Assembly: GCF_024713945.1 (NCBI RefSeq)
Contig: NC_134678.1
Location: 558,001-622,000, forward strand
DNA: 64,000 nt
Direction of reading: 5' to 3'
Source: Dermatophagoides farinae
Lineage: Eukaryota > Arthropoda > Arachnida > Sarcoptiformes > Pyroglyphidae
The notes beneath the pieces were generated by a model. The model was not told the DNA's origin and searched no databases. It saw only the letters and a list, made by a program, of their open reading frames with translations. Shown here piece after piece: positions 37,173-59,888 of the stretch. Numbering within the stretch: the stretch's first letter is position 1; every line of letters begins with the position of its first letter. The translations under genes and the position numbers were made by a program.

Positions 37173-40100
37173 TCATTTTTGTTTTGTGACTATGTCAATC
37201 TCTTTTTTTGTTTCAATTAGATTAGCTGCTACAGAAGCGGCTGCTGCCGCTGCTGCAGCAGCAGCGGCATCCGCTGATAAATTTGTTGTTGATGATGATA
37301 AATGATGGTGGCCGATATTCAAACCACCACCAATACCACCGACACCACCAACACCTTGATTTGAATACGTATTCAATTGTTTTTCGAGGTATTTTAGTGA
37401 TTCTGTAAGAAAATTCTGTACAGATGTTAATGCAGCAACAATAGCTGGACTACCAAAACCATGTGTTATTAATGAAAAATGTGTTAAATTTCGTTGTATA
37501 TTTGAATCAAGTATTGGCTGTGGTCGACCATTACATAATGGTGAACGATCCTGATTTAGTAGATCCATAAATTCTTTTAATAATTGCCTGAAATTTGAAA
37601 CGGTGAAAATTAAAATTCCAAAAACAAAAAAAAATCGATTCAATCCACTTACTTGGTTGATAATACTAATTCTTTACGTCTATAAATATCTGCTGGTTCA
37701 GAATTATTTCGACATAGATATTCAGCCATTTGTTTGGCCGGAAATTCTGTATCGCATACATATGCAAAATCTCTTGCTAAATGTAATGCTTCTCCTATAA
37801 TGAATAACCACAGGGTGAATAAAAAATTCTAAACGCAAAAAACCTCTGTCGTTTTTACCTTCAACCAATGATGTCAATAGTGTAACATTTGCCGCTTTCC
37901 TACGACCTGCCGGTAAATTTAGACCAATTTTTTCCAATTTTTCACGTAATGATTTTCCACCATTTTTCGATTTTGCTCTGTAAGAAAAAAAAAATCGCAA
38001 CGATGATGATGATGATGATGATTAAAACCCAATGACTAACCTCCGTAATACACCGCCCAATAATGATGCATTTAAACATTCAGGTGGCGAAAGACGACGA
38101 TGTACTTCACCGACTGTTACTTTATATTTTGATGTTGAACTTAATAATGATAATCGGCCAGGTACTGAACAGAATACATCTGCTGGTGATGTTACACCAG
38201 TGATGATCATATCTTTATGCATATCATTATTATTATTACGTTGTTTTATTCCTAATAGAAAAAAAATTCATCAAAATACAATAAAATCATCAACAATGAC
38301 AACAACAACAACAACACACTTACCATTACCATTGACAATATTTTTTCTAATAACACTATTATTAGGATGTTCAGGTGATGAAAATATGTTCGATGTATCA
38401 TCCAGGTTTGCGCCCTGTTTACAAAACAAAACGAAAATTTTGAAATTAATAAAATTCGAATGATAAATTTTTTTTTTTTTTTTTTTTTTTGGTAATTAGA
38501 AACCAATACCACCACAGAATCAGAATCGTCAGAATTCATTTTTCAAATTACCAATAAACAAGATGATTGCATCATCAATGTTTGTGCCATATTTGATAAT
38601 AATAAATTTTTATTCAATAATAATGTTGAATTAATGGCCATTAATTGTGATTGAAGATCACCAGGTAAATTATTATTTGCTATCAATGAATGTTCATCAT
38701 CATCATCATCGTCATCATCATTATCATCACCGGTATTATCATCTGTTTCATCATCAATTAAATTTTCTTCATCTTCATCATCATCATCATGATCATCATT
38801 ATCAACATCGTCATCATCATCATCGATAATGGAATCATTTATAATAATTGAAGCATCAATTTCATCATCATCATTATGTTTATCACGTGATTGTTTTATT
38901 AATTTTATTGGTGTTACATCAACCAAATGATCATCACCATCATCATCATCATCATTATTATTAATTCGGCAACGTTTTTTCGATTGTAAATTATTATTTT
39001 CGGCCATTTGTTTATTTATTGTTTTTGTAGTTATGAATGAAATAAATAAATTTTTCTCTTTGTTGACCAGATTGATCTATATTTTGATTGACTGATGTGG
39101 AATTTTATCAAAAAAAAAACGAAAATCTTGACTAGAGTGTTGATATTGAGTTGACCACCGGTCGATTCGATTTTTTTTTGTGAATGGGATATTCACTGTA
39201 ATAAATAATCAAACAAGGATTGATTCATCGTATCAAACAAATAAACAAACGTCACGACGATAAGATGATCAAATCAAAGAAAGTGAGAGAGAGAGAGAAA
39301 AGAATCCCTGAGGAAACAAAACAATAAAAAAAAAATATTCGGCGAGCCCATCCACACACATCACATACAATTTCTTGGTAGAATCACTCCAAGCGTTTTT
39401 TTTTTTTTTTTTGGTTTCAGGGATGTATATCTCGGGTAACATGTTGTGTGCTAGTAGCATGTTTATATTTTTGAATGAAAAAAAATTGCTGGCGGCGTCA
39501 AAATACAGTACAGCACACACACATATAAATAATACTGCTTTTTGTATTCGTATGTGCTTCTTGTTTGCATTTATTATTGTGTTTGTGTGTGTGTGTGCTG
39601 CCTCGAGCCAGATAGACAGATAGATAGATACATAGATGGCAAAAAAAAGGGCTAGCCCAAAGGCACAATATCGTCAATTCCATTTCCATTTCTATCCCAA
39701 GGCTAATAATATACACACACACACACACGGTGAACGCGCCCTGTTTTGTTTTGTTTTTTTATTCAAATACAAAAAAAAACCAAATCAGCTGATCATACAT
39801 GTCATTGAAATTCTATGGAATTTTTTTTTTCAACCACCATCAACTTTCTTCATTCACCATCAATTTTAATGTTTGATGAATTTCTTAATTGAAAAAGAAC
39901 ACATCCTGTCATCATCATTATTACATCATATTCACTAGTACAAACGCACACACAGGATAAAAATTTCCTTTCACACACACACACCGCGTACACAGTGTTA
40001 ATTTATATATAACAACAAATTGAATTTTTTTTTTTGTCCGATGAAATAAAAAAAAACGAAAATAAAACCAAAACACTGACATAAAAAAAAAACGGTGGGA

Positions 40101-59849: not shown

Positions 59850-59888
59850 CTGCCAGGAACAAGACGAATCAAGTGCTAGAAATGACAT
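59850..59888 (-). CDS. TFAP2: Alternative distal first exon of TFAP2 (13 codons)
   Basis: On the minus strand an ATG at 59888 encodes MSFLALDSSCSWQ and ends exactly at a strong donor CAG|GTAAGT in phase 0. Joined to the phase-0 exon at 42434 it gives ...[13 protein letters not shown] known vertebrate TFAP2A isoform starts MSILAKMGDWQ directly followed by DRHDG, so start, Trp-Gln end and junction all correspond. This makes it the probable first coding exon of a long isoform with a 17,415-base intron. It is far too short to be found by ORF length. Recall of the vertebrate isoform is from general knowledge, not a search. Confidence 0.75.

Follow-up and report, generated by a model that had tools for sequence, protein, structure and literature searches.

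The AP-2 gene of the mite Dermatophagoides farinae probably possesses three alternative first coding exons, the third of which would give a protein lacking the PPxY region encoded by exon 2. This model, which was built from the DNA sequence, is held with moderate confidence. The complete gene lies on the minus strand at positions 37173-59888 of the window, the window being the whole 64-kb stretch of DNA that was analysed. In flies and vertebrates alike, AP-2 governs the development of limbs, head and nervous system, and the vertebrates diversify it by means of five genes together with alternative starts. The labels 1c-like, 1m and 1d were coined in this analysis, and mite 1d is unrelated to the human exon 1d. 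In the order of transcription, the features of the locus are the following (a slash in a motif marks the splice site).

59850..59888, minus strand: 1c-like first coding exon, 13 codons, peptide MSFLALDSSCSWQ, phase 0, donor CAG/GTAAGT
42435..59849, minus strand: proposed 17.4-kb intron that separates the 1c-like exon from exon 2 and houses exon 1m
42748..43059, minus strand: 1m, candidate alternative first coding exon, 104 codons, MEELVENNN...FILPE, phase 0, donor GAG/GTAATC
41367..42434, minus strand: exon 2, beginning DRRDL, with the PPxY motif and poly-Gln, poly-Ala and poly-His runs, donor CAG/GTAAGT
39008..39076, minus strand: stretch before the 1d ATG, open and in frame, with a possible phase-0 acceptor AATATAG/ATC
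38552..39007, minus strand: 1d, candidate alternative first coding exon, 152 codons, MAENNN...(D/E-rich)...SSCLL, phase 0, donor TTG/GTAATT
38324..38414, minus strand: exon 3, the most upstream exon shared by the three proposed forms
38041..38251, minus strand: exon 4, in which the AP-2 domain begins, with a PF03299 match
37859..37977, minus strand: exon 5, AP-2 domain with a PF03299 match, aligned with 8j0q and 8j0k
37653..37794, minus strand: exon 6, AP-2 domain with a PF03299 match, aligned with solved AP-2 chains
37173..37587, minus strand: exon 7, end of the AP-2 domain with a PF03299 match, a poly-Ala run, and an open frame to the stop codon

The joined protein matches PF03299 with an E-value of 6.7e-78 over profile positions 1-196 of 197, and its AP-2 domain shows 89% identity, across 114 aligned columns, with parts of the AP-2alpha and AP-2beta chains in solved structures. 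A profile search of the mite's own assembly (62,435,336 bases, 22 contigs) detected PF03299 at one locus only, as four exon pieces. A DNA search of the same genome with exons 1m to 7 as the query gave at least 114 matches, one of which is the AP-2 locus itself; the others fall on its di- and trinucleotide-rich tracts, as read from the match positions in the query. No second copy with splice junctions was found among the best 40 of 492 candidates, which were scored. Scans of a genome-contig collection and a viral-contig collection found no AP-2 relatives.

Exon 2 has a coding LLR of +122 and is in phase 0 at both ends. Because an in-frame stop codon directly precedes it, exon 2 must have an upstream exon. 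The vertebrate AP-2 exon 2 carries the same PPxY motif and starts DRHDG. Exon 3 (LLR +7.0) has an acceptor score of 6.0 and a donor score of 7.2, and exon 4 has an LLR of +28.4. The long poly-Gln, poly-His and poly-Ala runs of exons 2 and 7 (41367-42434; 37225-37276) are partly tandem repeats. A gene for a BSD-domain protein (PF03909, 1.1e-09) adjoins AP-2 on the plus strand at 33188-34156, and a FAM91 family gene (PF14647 and PF14648) lies on the minus strand at 18595-20673.

An earlier note on this DNA had placed three ATG exons, each ending at a phase-0 GT donor, at the positions given above. Coordinates, lengths (39, 312 and 456 bp, all divisible by 3) and donors were all confirmed. The note had also joined the first two exons to 42434 and the third to 38414. 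All three joins leave the frame open to the stop codon ending at 37173, giving 694 aa from the 1c-like exon, 785 aa from 1m and 477 aa from 1d, with the caveat that 1d may instead be internal.

Coding potential was scored with a frame-specific order-4 model trained on long open frames (61.0 kb) and noncoding DNA (133 kb), drawn from the window and from 200 kb next to it with window positions 37000-60000 excluded. A self-trained HMM, whose training left this locus out, predicted 237 introns, and these supplied the donor weights. Segments running from an ATG to a phase-0 donor between 38552 and 63990 were then ranked by coding LLR plus donor score, exon 2 being set aside. The two highest were 1d (34.6) and 1m (33.5), about five times the score, in nats, of the best other candidate: the next minus-strand segment and the best plus-strand segment each reached 6.5. 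The 1c-like exon scored 5.6, which is within noise. The ATGs of the 1c-like, 1m and 1d exons have start-codon scores of 0.91, -0.8 and 2.36, where the background has a median of 0.1 and a 75th percentile of 2.3; the scoring model rests on 14 predicted starts, and these scores are uninformative. A scan for TATA-type patterns, equally uninformative, found none in the 400 bp 5' of any of the three ATGs. A similarity between 1m and 1d was considered and rejected, since 76 of 1,000 shuffles reach the same score.

The far exon carries no coding signal (LLR -2.3). Its donor scores 7.9, a value reached by 2 of the 1,606 GTs on the minus strand at 36000-63950, namely this donor and that of exon 2. The human TFAP2A first-exon peptides 1a, 1b and 1c are MLWKLTDNIKYEDCE, MLVHSFSAM and MSILAKMGDWQ, respectively (Table 3 in the part of PMC6418405 that was available). 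Compared with 1c, MSFLALDSSCSWQ scores 22 and the next best of 869 candidates scores 16; the candidates, drawn from 264 kb read on both strands, were ATG-to-donor segments of 8-25 codons whose donor scored 3.4 or more. The likeness to 1c was noticed before testing, all three human peptides were tried, and the exon itself had been named beforehand. Nothing resembling 1a was found: the best local score, 5, is reached by 71 of the 869 candidates. For 1b the best local candidate is a possible short minus-strand exon, MILHLCAFCFL (56807-56839), with a phase-0 donor of 4.0; its score of 15 is reached by 3 of the 869, itself included, and the weak likeness is not convincing and probably due to chance.

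The far exon is likely homologous to human exon 1c, as judged on 11-13 residues, too small a number to be certain; the likeness is absent from the earlier note. Because MSFLALDSSCSWQ matches human exon 1c better than the 868 other candidates do, the comparison suggests that the 1c-type start predates the split between arthropods and vertebrates. The proposed intron from this exon to exon 2 measures 17.4 kb, compared with a median of 78 bp across the 237 predicted introns. Apart from 1m, no candidate exon inside it scores above 6.5. Rfam gave no match at the gathering score anywhere in the 64-kb window.

Exon 1m has a coding LLR of +29.4 in its frame, compared with -151.5 and -48.9 in the other two, which contain stops, and an in-frame stop lies 5' of its ATG. 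Its donor scores 4.1, the 32nd percentile of trained donors, and is matched or beaten by 82 of the 1,606 local GTs. The donor of 1m is less sure because the coding signal continues to 42718 and because a better-scoring GT lies at 42939. Coding signal alone would run 1m to 42718 (LLR 29.8 vs 29.4), but the donor there scores -1.4. The GT at 42939, inside 1m, scores 5.0 vs 4.1, but it is in phase 1 and does not fit exon 2.

Exon 1d sits between exons 2 and 3, and its proposed splice partner is exon 3. Its coding LLR is +29.7 in frame, compared with -511.0 and -158.0 in the other frames, which contain stops; 23.2 of the 29.7 nats fall outside the tandem-repeat tract at 38694-38824. The donor scores 4.94, the 52nd percentile of trained donors, and is equalled or exceeded by 31 of the 1,606 local GTs. 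The encoded head is acidic, with 50 D/E and 9 K/R in 152 residues, and includes KKRCR. Pfam gave no match to 1d at E-values up to 1, a result that is uninformative either way. The best reading of 1d is that of a first exon which starts at its ATG and bypasses exon 2, and this is the weakest step of the three-exon model.

The principal alternative treats 1d as an internal cassette exon, 39076-38552, that follows exon 2 and precedes exon 3 in phase 0. The long protein would then carry an additional acidic segment, every form could contain the PPxY motif, and the 1c-like exon and 1m would remain alternative first exons. The open frame of 1d does extend exactly to a phase-0 AG at 39077, and the joined frame is open over 869 aa. 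However, the acceptor bounding 39076 is weak (3.07, the 16th percentile of trained acceptors), with 161 of the 838 local AGs doing as well. The 23 extra codons (69 bp) also look noncoding: their LLR of -3.8 ranks at the 2.8th percentile among held-out coding windows (862) and at the 65th among noncoding open windows (4,320). The HMM path also chose the cassette, drawing 1d as internal from 39076. Since the HMM gives one path per strand and merges genes, it was not used to judge between alternatives. It chose the same donors, 42748 and 38552, for 1m and 1d, extended 1m to 43066, omitted the 1c-like exon, cut exon 7 at 37325 and merged AP-2 with a neighbouring gene, which we take to be CAD from its translation. 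In place of the 1c-like exon, the path opens the gene with a 23-bp exon on the minus strand at 51485-51507. Taken together, the cassette is considered unlikely, though it is the reading with which 1d as a first exon has chiefly to compete. The earlier inference of at least three AP-2 proteins from separate promoters, one of them without the PPxY region, is thus supported in part: a single AP-2 gene with three fitting exons stands, and the protein without PPxY is the part that the cassette would make unnecessary.

A different acceptor, TTTATTACAG/TGAAT at 39195, lies 188 bp 5' of the 1d ATG and scores 6.0, making it a possible acceptor for a leader or a poison exon. In the former case a leader would be spliced to 39195 and translation would begin at the ATG at 39007; in the latter exon 2 would be joined to 39195. 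Both the 1c-like exon and exon 2 run straight into a stop when joined there. However, about 38 of the 838 local AGs reach 6.0 (a count taken from the exon 3 acceptor), so that one nearby is not unusual, and the leader or poison exon has no other support. We regard this arrangement as quite improbable.

It is very improbable that only one start is used, 1m and 1d being open frames that arose by chance or are in decay. The far exon alone has a recognisable human counterpart, and both 1m and 1d are low in complexity, as such a reading would have it; against this stand their scan scores, about five times that of the best other candidate, and the location of most of the 1d signal outside its repeat. 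Least credible of all is that 1d forms a gene of its own, with a single exon, encoding an acidic protein that terminates at the TGA just past the 1d donor: this TGA is the third codon beyond the donor and the LLR to the stop (28.7) is near that to the donor (29.7), but the donor is in phase and is followed at once by the strong exon 3 acceptor, and no AATAAA or ATTAAA occurs in the 294 bp to exon 4, a test that is weak because none occurs within 874 bp past exon 7 either.

Under the three-exon model, the 1c-like exon and 1m would each splice in phase 0 to the PPxY-bearing exon 2, giving full AP-2 proteins with different N-termini. Splicing of 1d to exon 3 would yield an AP-2 protein with exons 3-7 and the entire AP-2 domain, in which an acidic head replaces the exon 2 region. 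Such a gene would have three transcription starts. The 1d form should bind AP-2 sites with altered activation, so that it would either damp its partners or act as an acidic activator. We infer the transcripts, promoters and activation functions of the three forms from sequence.

The statement in the earlier note that vertebrate TFAP2A has alternative first exons agrees with the literature. As described in section 11 of PMC3219183, human TFAP2A can begin with any of three EST-supported first exons (1a, 1b and 1c), which are conserved in vertebrates, and has a questionable fourth, 1d. The mite gene is similar in that ATG exons would feed one shared exon 2 and the far exon resembles 1c (MS-x-LA...WQ). 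The vertebrate-type layout, in which several ATG exons with phase-0 donors fit one exon 2, is found in the mite for the 1c-like exon and 1m. Unlike in human TFAP2A, mite 1m is long and no human counterpart was seen here, and mite 1d is located 3' of exon 2, which it would skip.

An AP-2 protein lacking its N-terminal region has a precedent in human AP-2gamma isoform 2 (Q92754-2), which is without the first 169 residues (PMC6418405, Table 5 of the part available). In that isoform the residues are just missing, whereas the mite 1d form would substitute a 152-codon acidic head. The available part of PMC7140685 describes AP-2B as a dominant-negative splice form of AP-2alpha without part of the DNA-binding and the dimerisation domain. 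There, as in the mite model, AP-2 activity is altered by alternative RNA processing; unlike AP-2B, the mite 1d form would keep the DNA-binding and dimerisation domains. Drosophila, with its TfAP-2, resembles the mite in having one AP-2 gene per genome, as stated in the part of PMC5103423 that was available; the words 'isoform' and 'exon' are absent from its main text.

Vertebrate AP-2 is thus already known to have alternative first exons, and AP-2gamma to have an isoform that lacks residues 1-169. The long 1m, the position of a first exon downstream of exon 2, and an exon 1c relative in an arthropod may be new. Among the matches listed from the open-licence literature, none described AP-2 isoforms in mites, as judged by title and the start of the abstract.

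A tentative history, which we consider possible and somewhat doubtful, is that AP-2 already had a first exon of the 1c type before arthropods and vertebrates parted, and that the mite lineage has a further promoter, lying between exons 2 and 3, by which the PPxY region is swapped for an acidic domain. One gene would then produce AP-2 proteins that bind at shared sites and differ in their activation partners. A first exon recognisably common with humans would place the 1c start before the split of the two lineages. If the start choice is real, a single arthropod gene varies its activation region through it, and if the model is true, one mite locus fulfils part of the role that vertebrates divide among five AP-2 genes.
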